This document shows, one piece after another, positions 13,908 through 35,576 of a stretch of 36,081 nucleotides of DNA. Below the pieces are notes generated by a model that saw only the letters and a program-made list of their open reading frames with translations, was not told the origin of the DNA and did no database searches. Source of the DNA: Verrucomicrobiia bacterium (GTDB lineage: Bacteria; Verrucomicrobiota; Verrucomicrobiia; Limisphaerales; UBA8199); NCBI GenBank assembly GCA_035946615.1, contig DASYZB010000134.1, positions 1 to 36,081 on the forward strand. Direction: 5' to 3'. The translations under genes were made by a program, and so were the position numbers. Numbering within the stretch: the first letter of the stretch is position 1; each line of letters begins with the position of its first letter.

Positions 13908-14029
13908 TAAAACAATTGACGTTTAGTACAAATGCACAAACAATTATTGGCTCTTTGACGATGTGAACCGATGAACCGCATCTTCCAGAACCTCGCCAGC
14001 GCGGCTTGGGGGCACTAAGGGACCGCGCG

Positions 14030-17961: not shown

Positions 17962-19418
17962 TGGCTGGACCTGGCAAAGCAGAGCAGTTTACACATATCG
18001 CCTCGCTCGATGTGCCGCAGCCGCCGCTGGAGTTGCAGCGCCAACCTTACGTCGCCAATCTCCACGGCTTCGGCTGGATTTCCAACAGGGTCGCCTCCCT
18101 CATCGAGGACCGCCCGCCCTTTTGGTGGTGGGCGCTGTTTGCCCCGAGCGTTTTGGCTTTGGGCATGCTGATGTTTATGATCAGCTACCAGATTTCCACC
18201 GGTGTCGGAGTTTGGGGAAATAATCACCCGGTCATGTGGGCCTGGGACATCGTCAATTTCGTTTGGTGGATCGGCATCGGCCACGCCGGAACGCTTATCT
18301 CGGCGATTCTGTTCCTGCTGCGCCAGCGCTGGCGCACCGCAGTCAATCGCGCCGCCGAGGCAATGACAATCTTCGCGGTGATGTGCGCCGGCATCTATCC
18401 CGCGCTCCACGTCGGACGCGTCTGGTATGATTGGTGGCTGTTCCCCATCCCCAACTCCAACTCCATCTGGCCCCAGTTCCTTTCACCGCTCATGTGGGAT
18501 GTTTTTGCCGTCTCGACTTACTTTACGGTGTCGGTCCTGTTCTGGTATATGGGATTGATTCCGGATTTGGCGGTCATGCGTGACCGTGCCAAGACCCGGC
18601 TGCGCCAGTTTGGCTACGGCCTCTTCGCGCTGGGCTGGACCGGCTCGAACCGCCACTGGAGCAATTACGAAAAGGCCTATCTGATTCTGGCGGGCCTCTC
18701 GACGCCACTCGTCCTCTCGGTCCATTCAATCGTCTCGTTGGATTTCTCTGTCTCGCAATTACCCGGCTGGCACACGACCATCTTCCCCCCTTATTTCGTC
18801 GCGGGAGCGGTTTTTTCGGGCTTTGGCATGGTATTGATGCTGCTCATCCCGCTACGCTCCATGTTTAAGCTCCAGGACATCATTACGATGCGGCACATCG
18901 ATCTGATGTGTAAAGTGACTCTGGCGACCGGTTCGATGGTCGGTTATGCATACGCCATGGAGTTTTTCATCGCCTGGTATAGCGGTAATCCCAACGAACA
19001 GTTCCATTTCCTGAATCGCGCGCTCGGGCCGTTCCAATGGGCCTGGATTCCGATGATCTCCTGCAATGCCTTGATTCCGCAGTTGTTCTGGTTCAAACGC
19101 ATACGCCGGAACCTCGTCGTGGTCTTCATCATATCCATCCTCGTCAATGTCGGTATGTGGTTCGAGCGGTTTGTCATCATCGTCATCTCGTTGTACCGCG
19201 ATTTTCTGCCTTCAAACTGGTTCTACTACTATCCGACCTGGGTGGATGTGTGCACTTACATCGGCACGTTTGGTCTTTTCTTTACTTGTTTCCTGCTCTT
19301 TATCCGCTTTATCCCGATGATCGCCATTTCCGAGATCAAAGGCGTTACACCTCAATCCGACCCGCACCATCCGATGGGCGGGGCCAAAGTTCTGGAGCCT
19401 GTGACCGATGAAGTTTAA
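17961..19418 (+). CDS. actC: ACIII subunit ActC, NrfD/PsrC-like membrane quinol-binding subunit
   Basis: A 485-residue polytopic membrane protein, one of two NrfD-type subunits of ACIII, with about ten transmembrane helices. Conserved-looking polar residues in helices include His in [12 protein letters not shown] and Asp in [11 protein letters not shown], positioned as in NrfD-family quinol sites and proton paths. In studied ACIII, ActC sits beneath ActB and holds the quinol-oxidation site. The long N-terminal cytoplasmic segment (about 1-50) precedes the first helix. The ATG overlaps the actB TAA by one base (TAATG), and the stop overlaps actD in the same way, so translation of all three is likely coupled. 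Confidence 0.93.
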
Positions 19419-19981
19419 TGCTCACTAAAGAGTTGCTCATGGCAGAGACCGCAAATAAAGCCTATGGCATGGTAGCCGAGTTCACCACGGCTGCATCGGT
19501 GTTGCATGCCGCCGAAAAGGTCCGCGATGCCGGGTTCCGGCGTTGGGATGTCTTCACTCCATTCCCCGTTCATGGGATGGATAAGGCCATGGGCTTGAAG
19601 AACTCGAAAGTGGGCTGGTTCGCATTCCTGGGGGGCGTGACCGGCTACACCTGCGGGATGCTGATGATCTGGTTCATGAACGCCTTGGATTATCCTATCG
19701 TCATCGGCGGCAAACCCATGTTCAGCCCATTCTCCGCTTTCCCGCCTTCGTACGAATTGACAATCCTTTTTGGCGCATTTGGCTCGTTGTTCGGCATGTT
19801 GTTTCTTAATCGCTTGCCCCGGCTCTATCATCCATTGCTCAAGAACAAACGCTTCTCCCTGGTCACCCACGACAGGTTCTTCGTTGTTATCGAGTGCGCT
19901 GATCCCAAATTTGACGAGGACGAAACCCGCAAGCTGCTCGAGCGCCTGGGCAGCTGGCATATCGAGGTGGTGGAAGAATAA
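19418..19981 (+). CDS. actD: ACIII subunit ActD (DUF3341)
   Basis: A 187-residue DUF3341 protein with a soluble N-terminal domain (YGMVAEFTTAASVLHAAEKVRDAGF; WDVFTPFPVHGMDKAMG) followed by two transmembrane hairpin helices around residues 65-135 and a cytoplasmic tail ending in RLGSWHIEVVEE. ActD is a structural, cofactor-free subunit of ACIII. The first ATG at 19418 overlaps the actC stop by one base; a second ATG at 19439 would remove seven residues and fits the family N-terminus nearly as well. The stop overlaps actE by one base. Confidence 0.92.
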   Translation: MLTKELLMAETANKAYGMVAEFTTAASVLHAAEKVRDAGFRRWDVFTPFPVHGMDKAMGLKNSKVGWFAFLGGVTGYTCGMLMIWFMNALDYPIVIGGKPMFSPFSAFPPSYELTILFGAFGSLFGMLFLNRLPRLYHPLLKNKRFSLVTHDRFFVVIECADPKFDEDETRKLLERLGSWHIEVVEE

Positions 19982-20628
19982 TGCGCTATTACCTGGCCAT
20001 CATGGTCCTGTGCACCATCGCGGTGGTTGGCATCCTCGGCTTCCGCGGACAGCATTCCCGCAGGACGACCCTCTACATTTTCCCGGATATGGAGTGGCAG
20101 CTCAAACTGCGTCCTCAAACGCCAAACAGCTTCTTCCCAAACGGCCTGAGCTCGCAGCTTCCGGTGCCGGGCACCATCCCCCGTGGCGCTCCGATTCAAA
20201 CCGCTTCCGAGCCGGTCTATCCTTATCAGGATTCGCCGGTCAACACCGGGTTCATGCCCGGCACGACCAATTTTGTTGAAACCAATCCGCTCCGCATCAC
20301 CGCTCAATTGCTCCAGCGCGGCCAGCAACGCTTTACCATTAACTGTTCGCCTTGCCACGGGCAACTGGCCGACGGCAACGGCATTACCAAGAAAATCGGC
20401 GCGATGCTGGTGGTCGCCAATCTGCACGACAAACGGATTGTCGAGATGGCCGATGGCGAGCTGTTTTACGTCATTACTCATGGCCGCAATAACATGGGGG
20501 CTTATGGGCCCAACGTCACGGTCGAGGACCGTTGGGCGATCATCTCGTACCTCCGCGCTCTGCAACTCAGTCAGTTAGGGACGATTGACGATCTGCCCGA
20601 GCCTCTCCGGGCGGACCTAAAACGCTAA
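19981..20628 (+). CDS. actE: ACIII subunit ActE, monohaem cytochrome c
   Basis: A 215-residue membrane-anchored cytochrome c, with an N-terminal hydrophobic helix (about 3-21) without a lipobox cysteine and a periplasmic class I cytochrome domain. The single haem motif is CSPCH at 122-126, and M172 in NNMGAYG is the probable sixth ligand. The region 30-100, rich in Pro and including MEWQLKLRPQ, is the usual ActE linker that contacts ActA/ActB. In ACIII it accepts electrons from the ActA haems and delivers them to a cytochrome c or directly to an oxidase. The start at 19981 uses TAATG overlap with actD. Confidence 0.92.
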   Translation: MRYYLAIMVLCTIAVVGILGFRGQHSRRTTLYIFPDMEWQLKLRPQTPNSFFPNGLSSQLPVPGTIPRGAPIQTASEPVYPYQDSPVNTGFMPGTTNFVETNPLRITAQLLQRGQQRFTINCSPCHGQLADGNGITKKIGAMLVVANLHDKRIVEMADGELFYVITHGRNNMGAYGPNVTVEDRWAIISYLRALQLSQLGTIDDLPEPLRADLKR

Positions 20629-20630
20629 TC

Positions 20631-21935
20631 ATGAATCCTACACCCGCAAACCCAAACCAGGCCCTGGACCTCTCCCGGTGGCGCAATGTGCCGGCTATCC
20701 TGCTGGGTGTAGGCGCTATTCTGGGTGTTATCGGTTTGTTGGTTAACCGCGAAGAATTCGCCTTTTCCTGGCTGGTCGCTTTCATGTTTTTCCTGAGCCT
20801 CTGCCTGGGCGCCCTGTTCCTGGTGATGGCGCATCACCTCTTTGATGCCGGGTGGTCGGTGCCCATTCGACGCTTTTGTGAGCACATCGCCGCAATGATT
20901 TTCCCCTGGATGGCCATTCTTTTCATCCCGATCGCCATTTTTGCCAAGAGCTTCTATATGGCCGGTGTGAACCACGGCATTTATACCTGGTTGAGCATCA
21001 ATCCCCACACCGACCACTCCGTGGCGGCCAAACAACCCCTCTTCAGCGAACCGATGTTTTACGTGATGGCGGCGGCCTGTTTTGCCATCTGGTGGCTGTT
21101 CTCTCATCGGCTTCGCTACTGGTCTTTGCAACAGGATGAGACCGGCGCCGCCCTGCCGACCTACCGCATGAGGGCCTATTCCGGGGCGGGCATCATTCTC
21201 TTCGCGCTGACGCTGACGATTGCGGCTATCCTGTGGGTCAAATCGCTCCAGTACCAGTGGTTCTCGACGATGTATGGAATCTATTATTTCGCCGGTAGCG
21301 TTTGGCTGACGCTGGCCACCGCCTATGTCATTACTATGGTTCTTGACCGCCAGGGTGTGCTCAGCAACGTGCTCCACGAGCATCAATATTATTTCCTCGG
21401 TTCATTGCTGTTCGCCTTCACCGTGTTCTACGCCTATATCGCCTTTGGCCAGTACTTCATTATCTGGAACGGCAACATGCCCGAGGAAACCTTTTGGTAC
21501 GTGCTCCGCGAGAAAGGGACCTGGTGGTGGGTGAGCATGGTGATTATTTTCGGTCATTTCTTCATCCCGTTCCTGGCGCTGTTGCGCATCGATGTCAAAA
21601 ACATCTTCCCCTATATGGCGCCGCTGTGCGCCTGGACCTGGCTGATGCATTGGGTCGATTTGTCCTTCAATATCATGCCCGTGCCGCACCCGAATGGGTT
21701 TCCCTTTCAATGGCTCTGGCTGAGCTTCGGTTGTTGGGCCTTTATGGCCGGATTGCTCTCGATGATTTTCCTGCGGCAATTCGCCGCCCATCCGCCCTAT
21801 CCGCTCAAAGACCCGCGGTTGGTCGAAGCGATGGGCTTCTTCCATCCTGTGCCGACGCAGATTTCCGGCGGAGAGCTGGGTGAAACCGACGAGTTGCGCG
21901 ATGCTCCGCCCCAATTTCGAGGAGGTTTCGAATGA
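20631..21935 (+). CDS. actF: ACIII subunit ActF, second NrfD-like membrane subunit
   Basis: A 434-residue polytopic protein with about ten helices, the second NrfD-type subunit of ACIII. Typical features are the MAHHLFDAGWSVPIRR segment after helix 2, AFTVFYAYIAFGQYFIIWNGNMPEE in a mid helix and HWVDLSFNIMPV near the C-terminal helices, all recognisable in 'quinol:cytochrome c oxidoreductase' proteins. ActF has no cofactor and in known structures may offer a proton half-channel. It begins two bases after the actE stop, and its own stop overlaps the next gene by four bases (ATGA), which ties the downstream oxidase-like genes to the ACIII operon. Confidence 0.92.
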   Translation: MNPTPANPNQALDLSRWRNVPAILLGVGAILGVIGLLVNREEFAFSWLVAFMFFLSLCLGALFLVMAHHLFDAGWSVPIRRFCEHIAAMIFPWMAILFIPIAIFAKSFYMAGVNHGIYTWLSINPHTDHSVAAKQPLFSEPMFYVMAAACFAIWWLFSHRLRYWSLQQDETGAALPTYRMRAYSGAGIILFALTLTIAAILWVKSLQYQWFSTMYGIYYFAGSVWLTLATAYVITMVLDRQGVLSNVLHEHQYYFLGSLLFAFTVFYAYIAFGQYFIIWNGNMPEETFWYVLREKGTWWWVSMVIIFGHFFIPFLALLRIDVKNIFPYMAPLCAWTWLMHWVDLSFNIMPVPHPNGFPFQWLWLSFGCWAFMAGLLSMIFLRQFAAHPPYPLKDPRLVEAMGFFHPVPTQISGGELGETDELRDAPPQFRGGFE

Positions 21936-22309
21936 GTTCTCAACCGGCTCCCGACCATTCCGTGGCGGCTCTGATCATTGGCGTTATAGGCTCCTTCCTG
22001 GTTCTGGCCGGACTGGCCTGGGCGATTCATCATTATACTCAGCCACCGCCTTTAACTGAAAACCGCGCCGAGGTCCGCGCTCGGGCTTTGGCCGAGTTGC
22101 GCGCTGCCGAGGCGGACGCTCTCGAACACCCCGGCTGGATTGACCCAACCAAGGGTGTCGTCCGGCTGCCCATTGCTGTAGCGATGAAAATGGTCGAGCA
22201 GGAGTGGGGACAAAACCCCGCAGCCGCGCGGTCCAACCTGATTTCACGTGTCGAAAAGGCCACCGCACTTCCTCCCAAAGCCCCGGAAAAACCCAGCCCA
22301 TTCGAGTGA
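21932..22309 (+). CDS. Single-pass membrane protein of unknown function in ACIII operon
   Basis: A 125-residue protein with one N-terminal helix (about 10-32) and a soluble, charged, helical tail. The tail contains HPGWIDPTKGVVRLPIAVAMKMVEQE, a GWxDxxxGxxRxPIxxAM pattern that I associate with small proteins near respiratory oxidase genes in Acidobacteriota and Verrucomicrobiota, without a known function. It has no cysteine or haem motif. Being coupled to actF (ATGA) and seven bases before the CcoN-like gene, it could be an accessory or bridging subunit between ACIII and the oxidase-like part; this is inference. CcoQ/CcoH-type assembly subunits are alternatives but no direct similarity is seen. 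Confidence 0.8.
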   Translation: MSSQPAPDHSVAALIIGVIGSFLVLAGLAWAIHHYTQPPPLTENRAEVRARALAELRAAEADALEHPGWIDPTKGVVRLPIAVAMKMVEQEWGQNPAAARSNLISRVEKATALPPKAPEKPSPFE

Positions 22310-22316
22310 CCGGTTC

Positions 22317-23792
22317 ATGAGCGCTGCGCCTTCATCTCAGCCTGAACCGGCCAGCCCCAGCGCGCCGGTTCCGGCCCCTTTGCCAGACACTCTCGATGTC
22401 TCGGCCCGGGTGCCTTTGCTGGCCCTGTTCCTGAGCGCCGCCGGCTGGCTGCTCATCGGTTCCGTTTTTGCCCTGATTGCCTCGATCAAATTTCATGCGC
22501 CAGGTTTCCTGGCCGGTTCAGGGTGGCTGACTTACGGACGAATTTATCCCGTTTCAACGAACCTGTTTCTCTACGGGTTCTGTGTGCAGGCCGGGCTGGG
22601 AGTGGCTCTGTGGCTCTTGGGGCGTCTGGGCCAAACCACCCTGGCGCAGCTCTGGCTGGTAGGGGTGGGGGGCTTTTTGTGGAACCTGGGTGTTATCGCA
22701 GGCGTGTTGGGCGTGCTCGATCGCGCCAGCACCGGTTTCGAGCATCTCGAAATGCCCGGCTACGCGGCGATGATTATGTTTTTGGGCTATGTTCTGCTCG
22801 CCCTGTGCGGTGTGCTGACGTTTCATCAAAGAAAGCTCCGCGAGTTGTATGCCTCTCAATGGTTCCTCTTCACCGCCTTATTTTGGTTTCCGTGGATTTA
22901 TTCAACGGCCAACCTGTTGCTGGTGACCTTTCCGGTGCGGGGCGTGGTGCAATCGATCCTCGATTGGTGGTACTCGCAAAACTTGCAGGTCGTTTGGCTG
23001 GGCCTGGTCGGCCTGGCAATCGTCTTTTATTTTATCCCCAAACTTTCTGATCGCGAGCTGCACAGCCGCTACCTGGCGGTATTAGTCTTTTGGATGCTGG
23101 TTCTCCTCGGGCCTTGGGGTGGGATTCCCAATAGCGCCCCGGTCCCCGCCTGGTTGCCGGTCGCCAGCACCATCAGCGCCGTGCTCTTGGTGACAGCCCT
23201 CATCGCCGTGGCGCTTAATGTATATCGTACCATTGGCTGCGTCGCTTTGGCTGCCCCCGGCAATCCTTCCTTGAGCTTTACCCTCTTCGCTGTCGCCGCC
23301 TTTATTATCGCGGGCCTCATGCGAGCGTTTGGCGGTTTGTTAGACAGCACACAGGAATTGCAGTTCACCTGGTTTGCCACAGCGCGCTCCCAGCTCCATG
23401 CCTGTGGCTTTTTTGCCATGGCCGTTTTTGGCGCGGTTTACTGGATTCTACCGCGCATTATCGGGCTTGAATTTCCCTGGCCTAAACTGGTGCGGGCCCA
23501 TTTCTGGGTGGCTGCGGTCGGCATCACCCTTCTGGTGCTGCCCTTGGCCATCGGCGGCATTGTCCAGGCGCTTCAACTGCAAAAACCAAACATCCCATTT
23601 ACGACGATTGCCAATACGGGATTGACGTTTTTGCGGGTGAGCACCATAGGGGATTTGTTACTCCTTTGCGGCCACCTCATTTTTCTTGGCAATTTGATTT
23701 CGTTAGCATTGAAGTTTTACAGCGTTCCTGCCCGGGCGGCCTATATGGCTGCGACGGCGGACTTGTTCAAAACAGTGGAGGCGAAATCGTGA
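22317..23792 (+). CDS. CcoN-like haem-copper oxidase subunit I homologue lacking all cofactor ligands
   Basis: A 491-residue, roughly twelve-helix protein clearly related to cbb3 oxidase subunit I. Anchors are YGRIYPVSTNLF (73-84) against FGRLRPLHTNAVIF, DWWYSQN (216-222) against QWWYGHN, IFGAVYWILPR-type sequence at 371-380, and AHFWVAAVGITL (394-405) against AHFWLATIGTVL. The residues standing where the ligands should be are S80 (helix 2 haem b His), Q221 (CuB His), P271/N272 (CuB His-His pair), R357 (haem b3 His) and Q359 (second haem b His). The cross-linking Tyr position is Gly265. Only H361 lies nearby, two residues out of register. The fold looks intact but no oxygen-reducing centre can form. 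The start at 22317 is the first ATG after the preceding stop; the Pro-rich N-terminus is cytoplasmic. Confidence 0.88.
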   Translation: MSAAPSSQPEPASPSAPVPAPLPDTLDVSARVPLLALFLSAAGWLLIGSVFALIASIKFHAPGFLAGSGWLTYGRIYPVSTNLFLYGFCVQAGLGVALWLLGRLGQTTLAQLWLVGVGGFLWNLGVIAGVLGVLDRASTGFEHLEMPGYAAMIMFLGYVLLALCGVLTFHQRKLRELYASQWFLFTALFWFPWIYSTANLLLVTFPVRGVVQSILDWWYSQNLQVVWLGLVGLAIVFYFIPKLSDRELHSRYLAVLVFWMLVLLGPWGGIPNSAPVPAWLPVASTISAVLLVTALIAVALNVYRTIGCVALAAPGNPSLSFTLFAVAAFIIAGLMRAFGGLLDSTQELQFTWFATARSQLHACGFFAMAVFGAVYWILPRIIGLEFPWPKLVRAHFWVAAVGITLLVLPLAIGGIVQALQLQKPNIPFTTIANTGLTFLRVSTIGDLLLLCGHLIFLGNLISLALKFYSVPARAAYMAATADLFKTVEAKS

Positions 23793-24715
23793 ACTACGGC
23801 CCGCTGCTTTTTCTTGGCGCTTTTTTCGCCCTGGCTGCTTCCTGGTTTGGCTTTGTGCTGACGCCCCAGATTCAACTGGGCCAACTCCAGCAAACCAATA
23901 CCGTGCCGGCAGGCGTCATCTATCCCCTGGGGCGCCCCGGCTTTGCGCGCGAGGGCCTCGAGGTCTATCGCGCCAACGGCTGCGCCTATTGCCACAGCCA
24001 ACAGGTCGGCCAGACCGGCACCACCTGCAACGTGGTTCTGGATCAGCCCGGAACAAATCCCCCCGCTCTGATTGAGGCTATCCTTAAAGTCGTTCCGCTC
24101 GAGTCGCAGTCCAGGGCCCGCGAACTGCTCACCGGTTTGCCCAAACCGGTCCTCGAAGGCCTCGGCAAAGAAGCTGCCGATGCTGCCGCAAAAACCCTGA
24201 GCGTGGATGGCGCCAAGGCCTCGGTCTGGATCGTCCCGGCGGGACCGGACATCGCGCGCGGATGGGCCAAGCGCAGAACCGTTGCTGAGGATTTTCTTTT
24301 CGATAGCCCCGTAATGCTCGGGGCCAGACGAATCGGCCCGGACCTGGCAAACGTGGGCGTCCGGCTGCCCGATGCCCGGTGGCATCTGCGCCATCTCTAC
24401 GCCCCTCGCGCGGAGGTCAAAGGCTCGGTCATGCCGCCATACGGTTTTTTATTTGAAAGGCGGCGCATTGAGCGGGCCAGGTCGCCTGACGCGCTGGACT
24501 TGCCGCCGGTCGCGGCGCCTGAACCCGGCTACGAAATCGTGCCCACACGCGAGGCCCGCGCCTTGGCTGCCTACCTCGTGAGTTTGCAGGCCGACGCCCC
24601 GTTGTTTGTGGCGCCGCTTACTGTGCCAGCCCCGGTGACGCCCGAGGGCACCAATGCCGCTCCAGGTTCTGCTGCGGCGACCAATGCCCTCGCCACCAAC
24701 AGCCCTGCCCGATGA
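23789..24715 (+). CDS. CcoO-like membrane-anchored monohaem cytochrome c with insertion
   Basis: A 308-residue protein with one N-terminal helix (about 5-24), haem motif CAYCH at 65-69 followed by SQQ (CHSQ in CcoO), and a distal-methionine segment with M215 in SVMPPYGFLF, matching SNMPAYPWL of CcoO. The hallmark LGARRIGPDLANVG also matches the family. About 75 residues (roughly 78-152, including an Ala/Lys-rich helix-like stretch) are inserted between the haem motif and the CcoO core, and the C-terminus is Pro/Ala/Thr-rich. The GTG start at 23789 gives a four-base overlap with the CcoN-like stop (GTGA); no ATG fits. It retains everything needed to bind haem c, unlike its CcoN-like partner. 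Confidence 0.86.
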   Translation: MNYGPLLFLGAFFALAASWFGFVLTPQIQLGQLQQTNTVPAGVIYPLGRPGFAREGLEVYRANGCAYCHSQQVGQTGTTCNVVLDQPGTNPPALIEAILKVVPLESQSRARELLTGLPKPVLEGLGKEAADAAAKTLSVDGAKASVWIVPAGPDIARGWAKRRTVAEDFLFDSPVMLGARRIGPDLANVGVRLPDARWHLRHLYAPRAEVKGSVMPPYGFLFERRRIERARSPDALDLPPVAAPEPGYEIVPTREARALAAYLVSLQADAPLFVAPLTVPAPVTPEGTNAAPGSAAATNALATNSPAR

Positions 24716-25308
24716 CCGACGCTAACCCATCCATCCCGTTGAATCCAGTTTCGGCGGAACCCAAGGCAGCGCGCCGGTCGGTCCCGGTTTGGCTGCTCAT
24801 TCTGTTCTTTCTGCTGCTTTACTGGGCGATGGTTTATTTCGACCAGCGTAGCGGTTGGGGTGACCCGCACGTTTATATCCCGTACCATTCAGTGGACCAA
24901 CTGGTGCAATACCAGCCTCCGGCCCCGGGCGCCAATGTGCTCGGCAAGCAGTTCTTCGATAATGTCTGCGCCCTGTGCCATAACACCGACGGTACGGGAA
25001 AACCAGGGCAGGCGCCCCCCTTGGTTGGCTCGGAGTTTGCCCTGGGCACCCCCAATCGAATGGTGCGCATCCCGCTAGTCGGCTTGAGCGGCCCTGTGCA
25101 GGTCAAAGGCCAGCAATGGAACCTCTCCATGCCGGCCATGGGCGCTGCCATGACCGATGAACAACTGGCCGCCGTCCTGACCTACATCCGCCAAAGCTGG
25201 GGCAATAAGGCCTCTGAAATAACACCCGCCCAGGTCAAAGCCATCCGCGCCCAGCTCGGGAATCGCGCCCAACCCTTCTCAGCAGCCGAGTTGAATGCGA
25301 TTCAATAA
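24712..25308 (+). CDS. Membrane-anchored monohaem cytochrome c, CcoP-like position
   Basis: A 198-residue protein with a single N-terminal helix (about 24-42) and a class I cytochrome c domain. The haem motif is CALCH at 86-90, and a distal methionine is at M140 or M143 in NLSMPAMG. It stands where ccoP would be in a cbb3 operon, but has one haem instead of the usual two and one helix. Its start overlaps the CcoO-like stop by four bases (ATGA). It is the last gene of the run that begins at actA, and it may be the exit cytochrome passing electrons to an oxidase encoded elsewhere. Confidence 0.86.
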   Translation: MTDANPSIPLNPVSAEPKAARRSVPVWLLILFFLLLYWAMVYFDQRSGWGDPHVYIPYHSVDQLVQYQPPAPGANVLGKQFFDNVCALCHNTDGTGKPGQAPPLVGSEFALGTPNRMVRIPLVGLSGPVQVKGQQWNLSMPAMGAAMTDEQLAAVLTYIRQSWGNKASEITPAQVKAIRAQLGNRAQPFSAAELNAIQ

Positions 25309-28063: not shown

Positions 28064-30439
28064 TCAATGCGGCGGGGGCATCGAGCCGCTGATGTGAGCG
28101 GAGGTGCGGTCGCGCATCCAAAGCCAGTCCTGGGTGTCTTGCGGATTTGCCGTTCCCGCGCGCACTTGCTTTGGGCTCGGGCTGAGCCAGCGATGCGATT
28201 CGGAGTGGCCATCGGCGAAGGCAAAACCGCAGCCGCCGCTGTGATAGGTGCCGGGCGCATCGATCCACATACTCTCTTCCATACCGAAGGCAAAGGCGGC
28301 GTCATTGAGGCCGCGGGCATCTTCATCGACCAACACCCACAACATCGCCGGGCCGGGGGCGGCGATGGCGGAGAATTTGCCATAGGTGCGCCAGGGTGTG
28401 TCCCGGCGATGGGTGCGCTGATCATTGAGCCAGGGGCCGTTGACCGGCAGGGTCGGGGCCCCGACATGCGGCGTCCAGGCGCCGGTGGAAGCGCCGGCAT
28501 CGAATCCCTGGCATATCGTTCCCACGGCCTGGCTCATGGAGAATGTGCGGGCGGCGCTTACGATGCGCCCCAGCAACGCGGGGTCCGAGCCTTGATAGTA
28601 GCCGGTGCGCCTGTCGCCTGGGCAATGAAAGACAGAGGTGTTGCCGTTCAAATAGGGCGCCAGCAGACTACGCTTTGGGTTTGACAACAGGTCCGGGTCG
28701 AATTGATCGCGTCCACCTTGCCCTGCCTGCCCGCCGCACCAATTATGACCGGTCACCGTATTGCCGTCGTCGGGATTGGGTGGAAACAGGTCCTTGTTAT
28801 CGCCGACATAGACGGTCATGGCGGTCATGAGTTGGCGGCCATTATTGAGGCAATAGACGCCCTGCGCCTTTTGTTTGCCGCGCGATAGGGCAGGAAATAA
28901 GAGCGCCGCGAGAATGGAAATAATGGCAATCACGACCAGCAATTCAATCAGGGTAAAGGCGGCTGAGCTGGCATGAGCGGGGCGAAGAACAGGTTGAGCG
29001 CCGTTGCGGCTGCGGCTCCAGGCGCGCACGATGGCTGCTGGTATGCCAATGGCCAGTCCCAGGAGCACGCTGAGGATGCCTCCAGCGATCATCAAGATGA
29101 GGCGAATGTTGCCGTTCAGGCCTTTGGAGGGCGGGACTGCCCTGGCCGCGATTTGCAAAGCGGCTGGGCCATCGCCGGACTGTTCGCAGGAGACCTGCGC
29201 AATCGTATTGGCAAGGTTAGCGGTGCCAACGCGGTCGGTGTCATAAACGCTGATGGTGATTTCAGAGGAGTTGGTGATAGCGCGCACCATCGTCAACCGT
29301 TTGAGGACATTCATCGCGTCAATGGCGGTGAGTCTGCGTCCGCCGGTGAATTTGCCGCCCCATTTGCGCGGCAGGTCCAGGTTGGTGACCACCAGGCCCG
29401 CCACCGCATCGGATTTGATCAGGGCCATTTGTTGTTCGAGCGAGCCGCTGGACTGGGCTTTGAGCCGCACGGTGCTCATGTACCATCCAGGGGCATTGAT
29501 CTGCGATACGAAGATGGCGCTGGCGACGAAACCCAGCAGGAATACAACCGCCGCGACGTAGCCGAAGGTTTTCCAGGGCGCCGAGTCGGTCCGCAGGTTG
29601 AGCATGATTCTATCGAAGGCGGGTGTCTCCGGCGCAGCGGGTCTCCTGGCGTAATATGGCGCGAGTGGTTTAGCGGGTTTCCTGAGCAGCAGCGCTAGAG
29701 CCACCGCGCCGGCCGGGGCCAGAACGAAACCGGACAAAACAAAAAGCAAGCGGGCATGCCCTGCCAGGGCATCGAGGCTGCGGTTTTGTGCTTCGACGTG
29801 GGTTTTGCAGGGGATTCCGTTGCGCGCCAGCAGGGCCAGGGTGTCATCGTCTGCCGGGGCATCAAAGCGCATGTGGTTGCGCCCGGGCAAGGTAATCCAG
29901 AGGGTTTTGACACCATTCTTGCGCTGGTACACCTCGAATTTTGCGCCTTTGCTTTCATTGATGATCCGTAGGACGGTGGTCGTTGGAATCTGTTGGACTC
30001 TCCAGGGAGTCTCCGCATAGAAGCCATAGGCACACAGACAAAAGATGATTGCCGGTACGACTGTGCCGGCGGCGACCCAGGCCACGAGGCGTTTCGGAGT
30101 CGCGTTTCGAGTGTCGGCTTCACGGAGCGGCAGATCGCGCCACCATTGCCAATGCCACCGCAACAGGGCAACGATAAGGACAAGGTAAGTCAAAACCATC
30201 CACAAACTGGCGGCCTGCCAAAAAGCCGGGTGGCGTTCGGGAGAAGGCCCTGCGACAATCAGGAGCCAGACCGGGAGAAGAACCCCCAAAAAACCAATGG
30301 CCAGCGCAGCCCAGAATTGAAGGAGATGGTGTGCCTGAGCATCAGACTGCCGGCCAGCCCGGCCCATAGCAACCCCCAGCCCTGCACCCAGGAGCGAGAG
30401 CAAACCCAAAGCCAGAAAGGCCACTGTAGCTTGTGTCAT
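28064..30439 (-). CDS. Fusion of polytopic Wzz-like membrane protein and prepilin-like H-X9-DG protein
   Basis: A 791-residue protein of unusual make-up. The first ~490 residues contain about six to seven hydrophobic segments, with a mid region (SGSLEQQMALIKSDAVAGLVV; ISVYDTDRVGTANLANTIA) like polysaccharide chain-length determinants (Wzz/GumC). Residue 495 begins a complete prepilin N-terminus, FTLIELLVVIAIISILAALLFPA, preceded by Ala. The remaining ~270 residues match the DUF1559-like 'H-X9-DG' processing-associated domain, ending H-SGGCGFAFA-DGHSESHRW. Stand-alone versions of each half are common in Verrucomicrobiota; this frame runs through both with no stop. The start at 30439 (MTQATVAF) is chosen over the upstream in-frame ATG at 30511, whose extra residues are basic and not membrane-like. 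Confidence 0.8.
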   Translation of the reverse strand: MTQATVAFLALGLLSLLGAGLGVAMGRAGRQSDAQAHHLLQFWAALAIGFLGVLLPVWLLIVAGPSPERHPAFWQAASLWMVLTYLVLIVALLRWHWQWWRDLPLREADTRNATPKRLVAWVAAGTVVPAIIFCLCAYGFYAETPWRVQQIPTTTVLRIINESKGAKFEVYQRKNGVKTLWITLPGRNHMRFDAPADDDTLALLARNGIPCKTHVEAQNRSLDALAGHARLLFVLSGFVLAPAGAVALALLLRKPAKPLAPYYARRPAAPETPAFDRIMLNLRTDSAPWKTFGYVAAVVFLLGFVASAIFVSQINAPGWYMSTVRLKAQSSGSLEQQMALIKSDAVAGLVVTNLDLPRKWGGKFTGGRRLTAIDAMNVLKRLTMVRAITNSSEITISVYDTDRVGTANLANTIAQVSCEQSGDGPAALQIAARAVPPSKGLNGNIRLILMIAGGILSVLLGLAIGIPAAIVRAWSRSRNGAQPVLRPAHASSAAFTLIELLVVIAIISILAALLFPALSRGKQKAQGVYCLNNGRQLMTAMTVYVGDNKDLFPPNPDDGNTVTGHNWCGGQAGQGGRDQFDPDLLSNPKRSLLAPYLNGNTSVFHCPGDRRTGYYQGSDPALLGRIVSAARTFSMSQAVGTICQGFDAGASTGAWTPHVGAPTLPVNGPWLNDQRTHRRDTPWRTYGKFSAIAAPGPAMLWVLVDEDARGLNDAAFAFGMEESMWIDAPGTYHSGGCGFAFADGHSESHRWLSPSPKQVRAGTANPQDTQDWLWMRDRTSAHISGSMPPPH

Positions 30440-30522
30440 AGACCCGGACCATTCTATCCAGACAGCTAACCGCCCTTGCAACCGGCCATTGTGTTTAGCA
30501 CGCTGGGGCAAAGAGTCAAGAG

Positions 30523-30596: not shown

Positions 30597-31787
30597 CTAT
30601 CCCAGCAACGCGCTGGCCTCGCGCATTAATCGGGCGATGGGGAGCCGCTGGGGGCACACCGCCTCGGCGGCGGTATAATCCACGTTGCCAGCCGGGCGCG
30701 CCAGGCCTGCAAAGGTTTCTTGCGCCAGGCCGGGGTCTCCATAAATCCGGTGGTACATCAAGCAACGTAGCGCGTCGCCAATCGGGGCGCGGCCAGCGGC
30801 CGGTTCACAGAGGTGTGTGCACCCGGCGCAGAACTGGGAATGAGTTTCCAAGGCGTAACGGTGTAACGCCGCGCGGTCGGCAGCCGTCAGTTTTGTTTTG
30901 TCATGAGCGGCGGCGACGTTGGATTCGAGGACAGTGACGCTGGACATCTGTGAGCAAATGGCGGCGATTTGGGAATTATCCCATACCGCTTTCAGCTTGG
31001 CTTGCTTATCGGTGAAGCCGCGTTTGATGAAATGTCCGCCCAATTTGAGGTCGGCAGCGGTCTCGGCGCGCAGGGGGCCGCCGCCCTGGGTTTTCATAGC
31101 GGTCAAGCCGATGCCCGCGTTGGCGCAGGCCTCGGTGGCGGCGCGCATGTTGTTGGTGCTCATCAGGCGGAAGTCGTACTTGAGCATGATGCCGTCAATC
31201 CAGCCGAGCTTGGCCGCAGCCTGCAAGCTGTTCTCCATGTTCCCGTGGGTGCTGAAGCCGAAGAAGCGGATTTTGTTCGAGGCCTTGGCTTTCTCGGCCC
31301 AGGCCTTTACGTCCGGGGTCAGGTCCTCGCCGCGCCCAATGCCGTGGAGGAAATAAAGGTCGATGTAATCCGTCTTCATGCGCCGCAGAGATTCCTCGAG
31401 CATCTCGCTCAGGCGCGCCGGGTCGTGAGTGCCGGCCTTGGAGACCAGAAAGATTCCTTTGCGCACCTCGGGGTGTTTCTCAAAATACATCCCGATGCCT
31501 TTCTCACTGTTGCCGTTGGTGTAACCGTTGGCGGTGTCCCAATAGGTGACGCCGAAGTCCAGCGCCCGTTGCAAGACGAGTTGGTTGGCCACGATGTCAA
31601 AGATGCCGCCCAGCGCGAGCATCGGGACCTTGACGCCCGTTTTACCGAAGGCTCGCGCGGGCAAGGTAGCAGGCGCGGGCTCTGCCGCCACTTGCGCCAG
31701 AACTTGGCCCGTGCTCAGCACGGACCCGACTCCGGCGGCGCTTGCGATTTTTATGAAGTCACGACGTGTTACGTTTTTGGTTTCCAT
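30597..31787 (-). CDS. Tat-exported aldo/keto reductase with C-terminal cysteine cluster
   Basis: A 396-residue protein with a twin-arginine signal (TRRDFIKIASAAG, 7-19; hydrophobic to about 32), so it is exported folded to the periplasm. The aldo/keto reductase barrel has the catalytic tetrad D84, Y89, K117 and H148, plus GFSTHG around 177-182. The C-terminal extension has C320, C323, C327 and C378 (CxxCxxxC...CP), resembling the Fe-S-binding tail of AKR proteins with a ferredoxin-like end. An NADPH-dependent reaction is unlikely in the periplasm, so electrons may come through the cysteine cluster; this is inference. It lies 21 bases after the NapH/G-like gene in the same direction. Confidence 0.87.
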   Translation of the reverse strand: METKNVTRRDFIKIASAAGVGSVLSTGQVLAQVAAEPAPATLPARAFGKTGVKVPMLALGGIFDIVANQLVLQRALDFGVTYWDTANGYTNGNSEKGIGMYFEKHPEVRKGIFLVSKAGTHDPARLSEMLEESLRRMKTDYIDLYFLHGIGRGEDLTPDVKAWAEKAKASNKIRFFGFSTHGNMENSLQAAAKLGWIDGIMLKYDFRLMSTNNMRAATEACANAGIGLTAMKTQGGGPLRAETAADLKLGGHFIKRGFTDKQAKLKAVWDNSQIAAICSQMSSVTVLESNVAAAHDKTKLTAADRAALHRYALETHSQFCAGCTHLCEPAAGRAPIGDALRCLMYHRIYGDPGLAQETFAGLARPAGNVDYTAAEAVCPQRLPIARLMREASALLG

Positions 31788-31808
31788 AATGTGTTCTTGT
31801 TTGAGTGT

Positions 31809-33539
31809 TCAGGCCCTCGCGGTGAGCGAGTGCCGCTGGTTTCTGGATTCATTCTCGGCCGTAACGCGGATGGCGCGCCAGCCGCTCACGGGACATTCGT
31901 GTTCGCAAATGCCGCACCCGATGCAGCGCTCCGGCTCAATGACCGGCTGTTGGAGCCGCACTTCGATTAGAATCGCGGCCCCGCTTTGCGGCGGGTCCGC
32001 CCAGGGAGCGGCCGGTGTCACGCTGAGCGAATTAGCGCAATTTTCTGCAATTAATTTGCGTTCACCAAGAGGCGCGCCGGCGAGGCGAACAAAATAATCG
32101 CCTGTGGCCAATTTACCGGTGTGCGAGAAGTCTTTCTCAAAGCTTAGGCTGGTGCGGGTAGCTGAACTGACCGCCAGGGCGCCGTCGCGGATTACACGAA
32201 ACTCTTCACGCAAATAAATCGCCTTGGGGCTGACGGGGCAGTTTTCCTGGCAGACAATGCAGGGCACATCCATGGCCCAGGGCAGGCAGCGGCCACGGTC
32301 CACAAAGGCGGTGCCGAGGCGCACCGGGCCGGTGGGGGCGAACGTTCCCCGCCCGAGTTTTTCGTCCAGGCTCAGAGGGCGGAGCGCGGAGGTGGGGCAG
32401 ACATTGCCGCACGCAATGCAGTTGAGCTGGCAACCGCTGGTCCCGGTCCGAAAATTCAGGCGGGGAGTCCATACGCCGGCAATGCCGACTTCGAGGAGCG
32501 CCGGTTGCAGGACATTCGTCGGGCAAATCCGGATGCATTGACCGCACTTGATGCAGCGCTGCAGAAACTCCTCTTCGACCAGCGCGCCTGGAGGGCGGAC
32601 GAGGCGCGGGTTCCAATTCTGGCCTAAGAATCCGCCCAGCCTGAGCGCGGGAGCGGCGGCCAGGCCAGAGATGGCCGACACCATAAACCCGCGCCGGGTC
32701 AGCGCTGGCAATTCCACCTCGCCGCCGGCGGAGCGGTTGGGTCCGTAATTCATTTGCGCCTGGCGGCAGGCGCGGAGGCAATTCATGCAGAGAAGGCATT
32801 CATTGAGACGGATTCTTTCAAACGGGTCACAGGCCCCTTCGCAATGAGTTTCGCACATCTCGCACTCGCTGCACCGGCTGTCGCGTTTGCCGATACGCCA
32901 CGGGGTCCAGCGCACCAACAGGCCAAACAGAGCGCCCAATGGGCAGAGAAAGCGGCAGTAGAATCGCGGGACCCAAAGGTTCAGCAGGACTGCAGCGAGG
33001 AAGGTGGCCGCAATCAACCAGGCGCCGTCGTAGGCTCGTGGCGAGGCGCCGGGGGCGCCAAAGAGCGCCAGCAGGAACAGGTTCACCGAACGGTGCATTA
33101 GAGGAATCGGGTCCAGCCAGCCGGTCAGCAGAATCCCGCATGTGGCCGCAAGCAGCACCACTACTAGAATGTAATACTTGAGCGCTTGCGCTGGCCGATA
33201 TTGGTTTAGGGCGACCCGCTCGGAATGCCGTTTGGCCCGGCGCCCGAGCCAGCCAACCGCCTGGTGCAGCGCGCCGAATGGGCAAACCCAGCCGCAAAAG
33301 AACCGGCCAAGAATAATTGTCAGACCCACCGTCACCAGCGCCCACATTAATCCGGCGTAGAGTTTGCGGGTTGTCAGCAATGTTCCCAGTGCCACCAGGG
33401 GGTCGAGTTGCAGCAGCCAGTTGATTGGCCAGCCGCTCAGTTGCCACCAACGCTCGCCTAAAGTTGTCACCACGCAAAACCAGAGGAACAACACCAAAAA
33501 GAACACCTGAACGATGCGGCGAGTTCTGATGATGTTCAT
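31809..33539 (-). CDS. NapH-NapG-like membrane 4Fe-4S ferredoxin fusion
   Basis: A 576-residue iron-sulfur protein in two halves. Residues 1-270 resemble NapH/CcoG/NosR C-terminal domains: four to five transmembrane helices, two CxxxCP motifs (FCGWVCPFG at 81-89, YCRFLCPLG at 194-202) and two ferredoxin-like cysteine groups at 223-237 and 248-258. Residues 281-296 ([16 protein letters not shown]) look like a Tat signal, now internal, and are followed by NapG-like ferredoxin repeats: [12 protein letters not shown] (329-340), [13 protein letters not shown] (370-382), CIVCQENCP (427-435) and [12 protein letters not shown] (539-550). It probably carries electrons from quinol to periplasmic partners. 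The ATG at 33539 is favoured; a GTG at 33602 would overlap the DUF362 gene by 23 bases. Confidence 0.87.
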
Positions 33540-33583
33540 AGCACTCGCACGTGAAGGGCTTCGCTCGACATTGACGCGTTCAT
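33536..33583 (-). CDS. Possible 15-codon coupling ORF
   Basis: ATG at 33583-33581 overlaps the DUF362 stop (ATGA). Fifteen codons later its TGA overlaps the start of the Fe-S gene (ATGA at 33539-33536). The peptide itself has no recognisable feature. It could carry ribosomes across the 40-base gap, but chance is quite possible. Confidence 0.25.
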
Positions 33584-34557
33584 TTCGCAAAAGTTGATTC
33601 ACCTACCCCGGGCCTGAGCGATTGGTAGTCCAGCGTCCCCAGCCCCGCGGCTGCTGCCTTCGTTAGAAACGGAAGGGTTGCGGGCGTTTTCCCCAGCAGC
33701 GTCGCGGCGGCGGCGTCGGCGGCTACCTGGTCGGTGCTGACGATCATTGTATTGGTTGCTTTGAGGTCTTCGAGCGAGCCGCCGGTCGGGCCGTTGGAAA
33801 TCATCGTGTTCGTGCCATCGAGGATGACGAGGGTTGGCCGGACCAGCATCGCGAGCTCGAAAATGATCGAGTGAATGTCCTGGTGAAAAATGTTGCGCCG
33901 GCCGCCGAGCAGGCCGTACCAGTTCTTCATTGCCAGGGAAGCACCGCTGCGATGATGGTCCTTGACCGGCGCCAGGCCGATTAGCCGTGTAGCTCCACGC
34001 AGCGGCTCGAACAAAAATGGCCAGTCCTTAATCAAGCGCCCGCCAGCCAGGGTGACCGATTTAAAGGAGGAAGGCCCAGGCAGGGCCAATTTGGCGCCGG
34101 CAGCTTGGGAGGCTTTGCCAATGCCGGTCAGCATAAAACAGCTTGCCGGATCGTTAATGGGATTATCGGTAACAACGACCGAGGCGGCGCCTGCGGAAAG
34201 ACACAACCGGGTGAGGGCTGCTACAAGATCGGGATGGCTCGTTGCGCAGAGTGAAGGCGGCGAGGCAAAGGCGGCATTCACTTTAAGCACCACGCGGTCG
34301 CCCGGTTTAATGAATTGCTCAATTCCACCCAGCGCCTTGAGGGCGTGTTCGAGGCTTTGCGCCCGGTCTGAGCCGGTCATCAGGCTCAGCTTTGGCCCGA
34401 CCTCAGGCACTGAAAAATCCGGCAGCGACACAGACCCGCCCGCCGGCTGGCCGGAGGGTCCGCGCGGGTCGCGCAAGGCGACGCCACCAGCCCCAACGGC
34501 GGCCAGGGCAAGGCCGGCTTTGGCTGCGCGCGCGACAAAATCACGACGGTCCATCAT
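33580..34557 (-). CDS. Tat-exported DUF362 protein
   Basis: A 325-residue DUF362 protein with an N-terminal twin-arginine signal ([14 protein letters not shown], then a hydrophobic Ala/Gly stretch to about residue 28). Domain features include [30 protein letters not shown], a [23 protein letters not shown] segment and a final [21 protein letters not shown]362 proteins are often encoded next to ferredoxins, but their reaction is unknown. It has no ferredoxin domain of its own, and the adjacent Fe-S fusion could supply it. Its start overlaps the stop of the upstream DUF6599-like gene by four bases (ATGA). Confidence 0.87.
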
Positions 34558-35576
34558 TGTGCCTTCGATGCCGACCGCAGTTTCTCTCGAAGTTGTATTG
34601 CCACCAATTCGGCGGGGCTGAGGGCAGTCGCCGCGTGAATGCCTCCAAGGAATCTGCCTTCGCTGAACACGAGTTCGGTCCCTCCCATAATCTCAATCCT
34701 CCGCTCCGAACGGTTGCTTGCCGCCAATTCTTTTCCGCCGTTCCCGAGCAGGAATGCGGCGTATGCGTCGCGCAAATGCTCGGCATCAGGGGCATTGGCG
34801 CAGGAGGCCAGGAACGCGGTCTGTTCAGTTCCGTCCGCGCGAAAGCGAGCTGTGAAGACATCTCGGAGACCCTCGAATCCAAACGCATCGGCGATTTGCA
34901 GCGTTTGGCTGGAAGCGACCAGGTCCTGGGTGGGGAAAAGGTCCAATTCTTCGATGCGCGTTCGGGTCGCTGGGTTGGACGCTACAAAGCGCGAAGCGGT
35001 CTCGGCCAGCGCTTTGAGCAGCGGCTCGTTGGGCGCCGAGGCGATGACCTCGACGTAATTGGTTCCGCAAACAAAGTAGAGCGCGTTTTGGGTGCGATAG
35101 GAGTACTCGGTGAGCTCGAGCGGCTTGCCTTCGGCGCGGCGCTGGAGCGAGAAAACCGAGAAAGCCGCAGGCAAATTGGTCATTTGATAGTCGAACCACT
35201 CGAACCATTGCTCCGGCGCCTGTTTCAATGCAAAGCGCGCGCAATGCAACTGGGAAAAGCCCGCCGCCAAGTACAGCTCGGCCTTGCCGTCAATCTTGTC
35301 ATAAAGGTTGTCGGAGTTAAAAGATTCGGGCTGCCCAAGGGCCTGCAGTTGGGGCGGAATGGCGTCGGGCGCTGGAGGCGGGCTTGCGCCCTGGAACTGG
35401 AGCCCGGCGTCGCGTGCGACCAACACCGCAGGATTGAAAGACATCTGCCGAAGCAACACGCCCGCGCCGATGATCGCCAGTATCCCGAGTATAATGAAAC
35501 TTGCGGCTTGCTCGGCCCGGCCACGCGAACGACCGGACGGCGGCGGAACGCCGTTGGCAGGGCCTTGCGCAGTCAT
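34554..35576 (-). CDS. Membrane-anchored DUF6599-like protein
   Basis: A 340-residue protein with one N-terminal helix (about 20-42, AASFIILGILAIIGAGVLL) and a large extracytoplasmic domain. Recognisable stretches are NLYDKIDGKAELYLAAGF, WFEWFDYQMTNLPAAFSVFSLQRR and an ALYFVCGTNYVEVIAS strand, a pattern I associate with DUF6599 proteins of Verrucomicrobiota and Acidobacteriota. No enzymatic motif or cysteine cluster is visible. The start at 35576 (MTAQGPANG) is preferred over an ATG at 35672 because the extra residues are low in hydrophobicity and out of character. It is the first gene of the four-gene redox operon running to 30597. Confidence 0.78.
   Translation of the reverse strand: MTAQGPANGVPPPSGRSRGRAEQAASFIILGILAIIGAGVLLRQMSFNPAVLVARDAGLQFQGASPPPAPDAIPPQLQALGQPESFNSDNLYDKIDGKAELYLAAGFSQLHCARFALKQAPEQWFEWFDYQMTNLPAAFSVFSLQRRAEGKPLELTEYSYRTQNALYFVCGTNYVEVIASAPNEPLLKALAETASRFVASNPATRTRIEELDLFPTQDLVASSQTLQIADAFGFEGLRDVFTARFRADGTEQTAFLASCANAPDAEHLRDAYAAFLLGNGGKELAASNRSERRIEIMGGTELVFSEGRFLGGIHAATALSPAELVAIQLREKLRSASKAQ

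Follow-up and report, generated by a model that had tools for sequence, protein, structure and literature searches.

A conserved four-gene operon with a Tat-exported DUF362 protein of LarA-like fold, a candidate carrier of the nickel-pincer nucleotide

For LarA, a catalytic role has been described for His174, while Lys184 is the tether of the nickel-pincer nucleotide (NPN) (PMC11770544). LarA homologues with a single catalytic histidine exist as well (PMC12611868). NPN itself is a pyridinium, described as a hydride acceptor much like NAD (PMC11770544, PMC7583248). In about 15% of the genomes surveyed in PMC11796402, larB, larE and larC are present without larA, and the same source describes the NPN user of most cyanobacteria as yet to be identified and expects it to be unlike LarA in sequence as well as in fold.

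The DUF362 family is treated as an outgroup of LarA within one Pfam clan (PMC11770544), and clan CL0471 is described as the “DUF362-like superfamily” with nested Fe-S regions (PMC7955657). Furthermore, DUF362 has been found appended to CBM9, often alongside Fe-S domains (PMC5742341). A link between DUF362 and NPN was not found in the literature, also when searched under PF04015, CL0471, Npun_F2552 and DUF2088; this is a weak negative, preprints being outside its scope. Three papers considered here as DUF362 papers (PMC12423673, PMC10892978, PMC6682159) were rejected, since they concern DUF3623 or DUF3626.

On the side of electron transfer, a close described protein is the polytopic fusion polyferredoxin PFD of the delta proteobacterium MLMS-1 (Q1NSB0; Tooke et al., 2017, PMC5449189). 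In its published description, it displays a NapH half with cytoplasmic Fe-S motifs, a twin arginine before the fifth segment and four periplasmic Fe-S motifs. The same source, in which a term search did not retrieve the term DUF362, describes its relatives of the NapH/NapG type as quinol dehydrogenases.

A conserved four-gene operon

The window, i.e., the whole stretch of DNA of 36,081 nucleotides that was analysed, contains a group of four genes, which had been proposed by a sequence-only reading. All four lie at the proposed place on the minus strand, with Pfam matches for DUF6599, DUF362 and an aldo/keto reductase (AKR), and the ATGA overlap claimed for the first two genes, DUF6599 and DUF362, is seen in the sequence. 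Gene 3 has two possible starts, a GTG at 33602 within gene 2 or an ATG at 33539, of which the ATG is likelier because the closest homologue matches from residue 20 only. The gap between genes 3 and 4 amounts to 21 bases. Three of the proteins had been regarded as exported or membrane-bound. Here, the count has to be raised, since the twin arginines of the DUF362 protein and the AKR, an internal twin arginine in gene 3 and the N-terminal helix of the DUF6599 protein make all four look exported or membrane-bound. Likewise, the Fe-S sites ascribed to two proteins are supported, these being a NapH/NapG-type membrane Fe-S protein and the Fe-S AKR. A known defence system is ruled out, as PADLOC gave no match at E ≤ 0.001.

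All four families are present together in 38 of the 51 loci from named genomes that have enough flank, and such four-family loci are found in Desulfobacterota, Verrucomicrobiota, Planctomycetota and Sumerlaeota. Within these 51 long loci, DUF362 is accompanied by DUF6599 in 49 and by the polyferredoxin in 46 cases. Three loci (L165, L168, L172) contain the DUF6599-DUF362 pair without AKR and polyferredoxin, so this pair can act on something else. In the phylum of the window, 44 DUF6599 loci were found, 43 with DUF362, 36 with the AKR and 31 with the polyferredoxin, where some of the absences are contig ends and two of the 43 DUF362 matches reach only 28–37 bits. The four genes are thus grouped far more often than expected by chance. 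The sequence-only reading was to be abandoned if the families did not co-occur beyond this genome; they recur together in many genomes, and therefore it stands on this point and a grouping peculiar to this genome is ruled out. This firmly establishes a real four-gene module that is kept in distant bacteria. A fifth gene of the unit is ruled out, since at most 14 of the 80 loci share any further gene cluster (crude gene calling).

The first gene (positions 34554 to 35576, minus strand) encodes the DUF6599 protein (PF20244, 148.3 bits, cut-off 27) with an N-terminal membrane helix and a periplasmic two-domain part. Its AF2 model has a mean pLDDT of 91 and places the helix at residues 20–46. The best structural matches are TM1622 (Z 12.2) and the sensor domain of PknH (Z 10.8), both for the C-terminal half only, and the matches of the two halves (TM1622, PknH, TP0453) indicate no function. 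No literature on DUF6599 was found, and a PDB sequence search gave nothing useful for DUF6599 or DUF362.

The polyferredoxin and the aldo/keto reductase

Gene 3 (31809 to 33602, minus strand) encodes a NapH-NapG fusion polyferredoxin, which scores below the cut-offs of both models (NapH 89.2 of 234 bits, NapG 77.7 of 269 bits). Its NapH half contains two CxxxCP and two more Fe-S motifs before an internal twin arginine, and the NapG half contains four Fe-S motifs after it. The motif cysteines are present in 88–90 of 90 aligned rows, all with a profile score over 600. The codons of the twin arginine R303-R304 lie at 32691 to 32696 on the minus strand, ahead of the fifth and last hydrophobic stretch (residues 308–326); R304 is found in 89 and R303 in 66 of the 90 rows. 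In its NapH half, its twin arginine before the fifth segment and its four subsequent Fe-S motifs, gene 3 resembles PFD as published, and by this arrangement the NapH motifs would be cytoplasmic and the four NapG motifs periplasmic. It is also similar to the NapGH quinol dehydrogenase of periplasmic nitrate reductase in subunit types and likely membrane role. In contrast to the latter, it does not reach the NapH and NapG cut-offs, and the four genes include no other Nap gene.

Gene 4 (30597 to 31787, minus strand) encodes a Tat-exported AKR with a twin arginine (PF00248, 85.1 bits, cut-off 24), a predicted [4Fe-4S] site and the residues D84/Y89/K117/H148, which we take to be the catalytic tetrad. 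D84, K117 and H148 are present in all 46 aligned sequences and Y89 in at least 90%; among 50 AKRs from loci of the phylum, outliers included, D84 is found in 47, Y89 in 49 and both K117 and H148 in 50. The motif CxxCxxxC...CP, which had been recognized from the sequence beforehand, comprises C320, C323, C327 and C378, and all four cysteines are kept in 46/46 sequences (in the same 50 AKRs, C320 in 50, C323 in 48 and C378 in 48). The family profile is devoid of the Lys and Arg of the C-terminal segment reading IPKAGRVEHLRENLKA in the AKR structure 6kik, which presumably function in NADP(H) binding; these two are not both kept in every compared AKR either.

With its barrel, its tetrad and its C-terminal cysteines, the protein resembles AKRs with a C-terminal two-cluster ferredoxin-like tail, which are presumably of the COG1453 type. 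In contrast to these, the AKR of the operon has a Tat signal and the cysteines of one cluster only, namely three of the first motif and the last CP. Two cysteine motifs are retained in the AKR of locus L049 and in the second AKR of L024. No literature on an AKR with both Fe-S and Tat was found.

The DUF362 protein, LarA and the NPN synthesis genes

The second gene (33580 to 34557, minus strand) encodes a Tat-exported DUF362 protein (PF04015, 135.2 bits, cut-off 24) with a LarA-like fold, a candidate NPN carrier or enzyme. In an alignment of 38 sequences, its twin arginine is invariant (38/38), the mean column identity is 62% and 67 positions are invariant. Using its AF2 model (mean pLDDT 91), Foldseek yielded 15 matches at E ≤ 0.001, 14 of which are named lactate/malate racemase or LarA-like and one of which is an unnamed Thermotoga protein. 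A VIA comparison of the model with LarA gave Z 15.1–17.1 over 203–211 residues for the top 12 chains, while the next fold scored 5.6.

On the level of profiles, hhalign related DUF362 to LarA with a probability of 83 and an E-value of 8.5e-6, using a profile of 52 rows (45 used by the program) and no residue pairing supplied beforehand; a first comparison with narrow profiles had shown no relation (probability 1.8). This alignment places H201 on the counterpart of the catalytic His174 and K211 on that of the NPN tether Lys184. The codons H201 to H225 (33883 to 33957, minus strand) thereby encode H201-x9-K211-x13-H225 as counterpart of H174-x9-K184-x15-H200 of LarA. H201, K211 and N212 are present in 52/52 profile rows, and H-x9-KN is found in all 80 DUF362 proteins of the named loci as well as in 38/38 other DUF362 proteins. 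The pattern with the x13 spacing is kept in 38/38 rows of alignment A3. H225, invariant in 38 sequences, lies one column off the LarA nickel ligand His200, with a spacing of 13 versus 15; a spacing of exactly 15 occurs in 9 of the 38 other DUF362 proteins.

Other features of LarA are missing. In the hhalign profile alignment, Arg75, which binds phosphate in LarA, has no counterpart, its column being Ala98, and K92 might substitute for it; His108, the second catalytic histidine of LarA, has none either, as it falls on a gap beside N135/D136. The match stops at residue 270 of 433 of LarA (5huq) and at residue 292 of 325 of the model, and since the DUF362 protein ends soon afterwards, the C-terminal domain of LarA is missing. 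The Lar_N profile is not matched; at E ≤ 0.1, only PF04015 and a sub-threshold CHAT match were obtained. Therefore, the DUF362 protein is not LarA proper. It has in common with LarA/Lar_N (PF09861) the fold of about 230 residues, the counterparts of His174 and Lys184 and the association with LarB/LarC/LarE, in contrast to its export by Tat, its length, shorter by about 100 residues, and the location of its gene in an electron-transfer operon. On plasmids, only two weak DUF362 records were found.

The association with the NPN synthesis genes is one of co-occurrence plus physical linkage in places. Among 49 genomes of one genus, LarC is present in 24/24 genomes with DUF362 versus 7/25 without it (Fisher 5e-8), a value that may be inflated by possible shared ancestry, because genomes were counted irrespective of kinship; for good genomes only, the numbers are 16/16 versus 2/12. 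LarC was also detected in 40 of the 42 genomes in which the unit, or else its DUF6599 locus, is present (29/29 good genomes). A Lar_N hit is absent in 18 of these 42, and all 18 contain LarC. LarC is absent in two locus-bearing genomes, G034 (83% complete) and G608, where the absence is likely a gap since G608 has five Lar_N hits. In four genomes of the same genus without a Lar_N hit, larB-larC-larE are located near the operon, at distances of approximately 0.3, 0.35, 1.7 and 6.8 kb. A scan of seven genes from three of the four cassettes showed each to be an equivalog above cut-off. This linkage may represent a single event in one lineage. Against the association, LarC is widespread anyway (86/97 relatives), and in seven genomes of the genus it occurs with DUF362 and Lar_N hits both absent. 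Of the 14 control genomes, one (Bacteroides ihuae) contains DUF362 without LarC, and three contain LarC without DUF362 and Lar_N. The genome of the window itself has one Lar_N protein of 75 bits, which could be its NPN user.

Proposed function and its alternatives

The LarA fold of the DUF362 protein, its His-x9-Lys pair and the association with NPN genes, none of which the sequence-only reading had recognized, suggest that the unit is centred on an exported protein carrying NPN. The operon is tentatively regarded, at close to but short of an even chance, as a periplasmic redox unit that is linked to quinone and built around a putative NPN protein exported by Tat. Here, LarB, LarC and LarE would synthesize NPN in the cytoplasm, K211 would tether it to the DUF362 protein, which likely binds it, and Tat would export the folded protein with NPN inside. 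To our knowledge, the periplasm offers no free NAD(P)H; the tethered NPN could serve hydride chemistry there, since it accepts a hydride like NAD. The Tat-exported AKR would bind a carbonyl or hydroxyl substrate, its single [4Fe-4S] cluster would relay single electrons and the NapH-NapG polyferredoxin would connect this cluster to the quinone pool, while the DUF6599 protein may be a membrane-anchored scaffold or sensor. The path and direction of the electrons are inferred, as is a putative substrate of the type of a 2-hydroxy acid, a sugar or an aldehyde.

Of the redox function proposed by the sequence-only reading, the co-conserved exported unit with a NapH/NapG-type Fe-S protein and an Fe-S AKR is retained, whereas the direction from quinol to a reductase and the AKR as end enzyme stay conjectural. 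In full, that view assumes a NapGH-type quinol dehydrogenase that supplies a terminal reductase, the exported AKR, with electrons, and DUF362 and DUF6599 would be accessory proteins without NPN. The resemblance of gene 3 to NapH and NapG, the kept tetrad and cluster of the AKR and the co-conservation of the four genes would fit. Nevertheless, it appears unlikely, as it explains neither why DUF362 has a LarA fold with the His-x9-Lys pair nor why LarC and larBCE track the operon in a genus where Lar_N is mostly absent.

The flow might also be reversed, so that the exported enzyme oxidizes a sugar, an alcohol or a 2-hydroxy acid and the polyferredoxin passes the electrons to quinone. AKR hydride chemistry is reversible in principle, and the window carries genes for an alternative complex III and an oxidase as possible takers of the quinol electrons. 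However, many of the named hosts belong to lineages that are presumably sulfate reducers. NPN hydride chemistry is in principle reversible too (hydride transfer is described in PMC11770544), but the NapH/NapG relatives are quinol dehydrogenases (PMC5449189), and altogether this reversal is considered rather improbable. Least of all is it to be expected that DUF362 and DUF6599 are maturation factors folding or loading the AKR or the polyferredoxin, with a LarA fold kept without NPN: the three loci with the pair alone and the missing counterparts of His108 and Arg75 would agree with this, but the enzyme-like invariance of DUF362 and its link to LarC argue against it.

If the preferred reading of an NPN-centred redox unit is extended to the family, DUF362 would be the missing NPN protein, sharing core fold and His-x9-Lys pair with LarA, lying outside the Lar_N model and being the NPN recipient in organisms with larBCE and without larA. 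The operon described here would then be an exported version connected to the quinone pool, and the first NPN system for periplasmic net redox chemistry instead of racemisation. Taken as a whole, this is a distinct possibility, although the balance leans somewhat against it. DUF362 is a concrete and testable candidate for the NPN user in genomes without LarA. If true, the role of NPN would extend beyond racemisation and beyond the cytoplasm, and a context would be provided for DUF362 and DUF6599, both large and uncharacterized families.

As a side observation, Synechococcus elongatus, one of the 14 control genomes, contains DUF362 and LarC and, at the thresholds applied, is free of Lar_N hits, which fits the pattern of DUF362 as NPN user without LarA.

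Conservation of the four-gene unit

Four genes follow each other on the minus strand between 35576 and 30597; in order, they encode DUF6599, Tat-DUF362, a membrane protein with Fe-S motifs and a Tat aldo/keto reductase (AKR). The sequence-only reading had described four consecutive genes on one strand with an ATGA overlap between the first two, and both features are borne out. For gene 3 the start codon is GTG 33602 or, likelier, ATG 33539, and 21 bases separate this gene from gene 4. It encodes a fusion polyferredoxin, in which an internal twin arginine connects a NapH half with two CxxxCP and two further Fe-S motifs to a NapG half with four Fe-S motifs. The motif cysteines are conserved in 88–90 of the 90 aligned rows with a profile score above 600. 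This is the dual Sec-Tat architecture described, together with a reporter test on one member, by Tooke et al. (2017; PMC5449189). The open frame that follows on this strand (28064–30511) lies outside the conserved unit as counted here. It is a long membrane-protein frame that continues into a pseudopilin N-terminal methylation motif and an H-X9-DG tail, and it looks like two genes within one open frame.

Of 320 genomes in the window's order, 37 have a match to the DUF6599 model PF20244, as have 8 of the 288 in a phylum sample, the window's genome included. Around 44 DUF6599 loci of the phylum, DUF362 is nearby in 43 (two at 28–37 bits only), an AKR in 36 and the polyferredoxin (Fer) in 31. Two gene orders prevail, DUF6599-DUF362-Fer-AKR as in the window and the AKR-first type AKR(-AKR)-DUF6599-DUF362-Fer. 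Scanning named genomes with the DUF362 alignment yielded at least 575 confirmed relatives, of which the best 80 were analysed; these derive mostly from Desulfobacterales and other deltaproteobacterial MAGs, but also from Verrucomicrobiota, Sumerlaeota and one planctomycete. Among these best 80 loci, DUF6599 is present in 74, the polyferredoxin in 64 and an AKR in 48. For the 51 with enough flank the numbers are 49, 46 and 38, respectively. The gene-neighbourhood survey proposed earlier thus finds all four families together well beyond the window's genome, in 38 of these 51 loci, and the four-gene unit is conserved. The 13 exceptions comprise eight loci without an AKR, three with DUF6599-DUF362 only and two with DUF362 only. 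In a midpoint-rooted DUF362 tree (100 trimmed rows, 35 open forks) the window groups with Verrucomicrobiota in a 10-row set (support 98/94), and most rows around it are deltaproteobacterial.

At four loci (L050, L054, L108 and L110) DUF6599 scores low (65–72 bits) and adjoins a DUF362 of 28–286 bits, with neither a polyferredoxin nor an AKR of the unit type nearby. At another locus (L034, 8338–18001) a gene 3 relative and DUF362, without AKR or DUF6599, adjoin a very large protein with CotH and lamin-tail domains. Proteins assigned to its loose cluster lie near gene 3 relatives in L033, L035, L036, L038 and L040.

The LarA fold of DUF362

The AF2 model of DUF362 (38 sequences) reached a mean pLDDT of 91. 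Here, 14 of the 15 Foldseek matches at E ≤ 0.001 are named lactate/malate racemase or LarA-like, the remaining one being unnamed, and VIA gave LarA a Z of 15.1–17.1 against 5.6 for the next fold. Lactate racemase LarA uses the nickel-pincer nucleotide (NPN), which is bound by K184, R75 and H200, while H108 and H174 are the catalytic bases (PMC11770544). A narrow-profile comparison of DUF362 with LarA gave no match. A broad profile of 52 rows (14 picked from the 38-row operon alignment, two further operon copies and 36 others) was aligned by hhalign with a probability of 83 and an E of 8.5e-6, pairing H201 with the His174 and K211 with the Lys184 position. H201, K211 and N212 occur in 52/52 rows; H-x9-KN is present in 80/80 DUF362s of named loci and 38/38 others versus 204 of 8000 shuffled sequences, and KxH-x9-KN in 41 of 43 from phylum loci, one of the two misses being cut short.

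The case for H225 as counterpart of His200 is weaker: it lies one column off with a spacing of 13 rather than LarA's 15, although exactly 15 does occur in nine of the 38 other DUF362s. The longer pattern including this third histidine is found in 37 of 40. The profile alignment revealed no counterpart of His108 and Arg75, which counts against NPN use by DUF362, and the C-terminal domain of LarA is absent. The clan link between DUF362 and LarA is already public (PMC11770544 and PMC7955657); in the literature searched, no published link of DUF362 to NPN was found. PMC11796402 (mBio 2024) poses the open question of NPN made without LarA, and the expression system used there could settle it.

Association with the genes of NPN synthesis

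Of 42 genomes examined (31 from the order's 37, four of seven others of the phylum and seven chromosomes from the named set), 40 have LarC, as do all 29 good ones. Lar_N, the LarA-family domain PF09861, is absent from 18 of the 42, all of which carry LarC, as do the remaining six of the 37. Since the LarC background is high (86/97 relatives), the telling test lies within one genus where LarC varies. Among its 49 genomes, LarC occurs in 24/24 with DUF362 versus 7/25 without (Fisher 5e-8), and in good genomes only in 16/16 versus 2/12. No DUF362 match was found in the 18 LarC-negative genomes, and Lar_N is absent from 33/33 tested in one set and 13 of the other 16. At least two operon lineages, and probably three, are represented among the carriers (G506; G509; the rest sampled), which lessens the problem of shared ancestry without removing it. 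The window's genome contains larB-larC, one Lar_N protein of 75 bits and two further DUF362 proteins.

Furthermore, larB-larC-larE lie convergent to the operon at a distance of ~0.3 kb in G542, ~0.35 kb in G530, ~1.7 kb in G538 and ~6.8 kb in G537, four genomes without a Lar_N match. The scanned genes of G542, G530 (LarE only) and G538 are equivalogs above cut-off (LarB 305–306 versus 175, LarC 206–209 versus 90, LarE 302–318 versus 150); LarC of G530 and G537 was called from PF01969. The linkage in L123 (Desulfobacterales) is weak, with larB ~4 kb away and several genes between. In 19 further genomes of the genus (14 carriers, five others) larC adjoins larB or larE, and the examined stretch contains no operon gene. 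Computationally, the operon is associated with NPN genes.

Exceptions exist. Of the 14 control genomes, one (Bacteroides ihuae) carries DUF362 but lacks LarC, and three (C. glutamicum, M. jannaschii and H. volcanii) show LarC without either DUF362 or Lar_N at the thresholds used. The unit occurs without LarC in two genomes, G034 and G608; the five Lar_N matches of G608 make a gap the likely cause of its missing LarC. In the genus, LarC occurs in seven genomes that have no match to DUF362 or Lar_N. DUF362 would therefore be no more than one NPN user among several, and some DUF362 proteins need not use NPN. In G512 (90% complete) and G519 (97%) of the same genus, larB-larC without Lar_N or DUF362 matches (loci L247 and L248) may reflect a further NPN user or remnant genes.

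The Tat AKR and a candidate mechanism

In 46/46 AKRs from the window and named loci, the RR and F, D84, K117, H148, C320, C323, C327, C378 and P379 are invariant and Y89 nearly so. Among 50 AKRs of phylum loci, outliers included, K117, H148 and C320 are found in 50, Y89 in 49, C323 and C378 in 48 and D84 in 47; the AKR-first type has its third cysteine one position closer. AKRs outside the unit (that of L049, the second of L024) retain two cysteine motifs, whereas the unit AKR keeps the first motif's three cysteines and the final CP. This set is what a single cluster in a two-cluster ferredoxin requires. Because the C-terminal Lys/Arg of the NADPH-type structure 6kik are lost, use of soluble NADPH appears doubtful, and in the periplasm it is unlikely. 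A second AKR with no visible signal-like N-terminus stands divergent beside larB in three larBCE cassettes (L107 253–1431, domain-scanned; L090 8983–9999; L246 13060–14625).

What the computation shows is a conserved unit with export and Fe-S motifs, the LarA fold, the His-x9-Lys pair and the association with NPN genes. Mechanistically, the likeliest reading is that NPN would be carried on K211 of DUF362 and exported by Tat, with the polyferredoxin as a bridge to quinone, the AKR as a substrate-binding partner and DUF6599 as an anchor. Such a model is attractive since a tethered pyridinium would allow hydride transfer chemistry in a place that lacks NAD(P)H.

The operon's own window harbors a quinol-oxidising chain (14006–25308), with alternative complex III genes for a multihaem cytochrome c, an Fe-S/molybdopterin-like protein, NrfD, ActD (228 bits) and a cytochrome c; genes for a COX1 oxidase, a FixO-like subunit and a further cytochrome c come next. 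At 4031–7152, two amino acid permease genes form a tandem pair with overlapping open frames.
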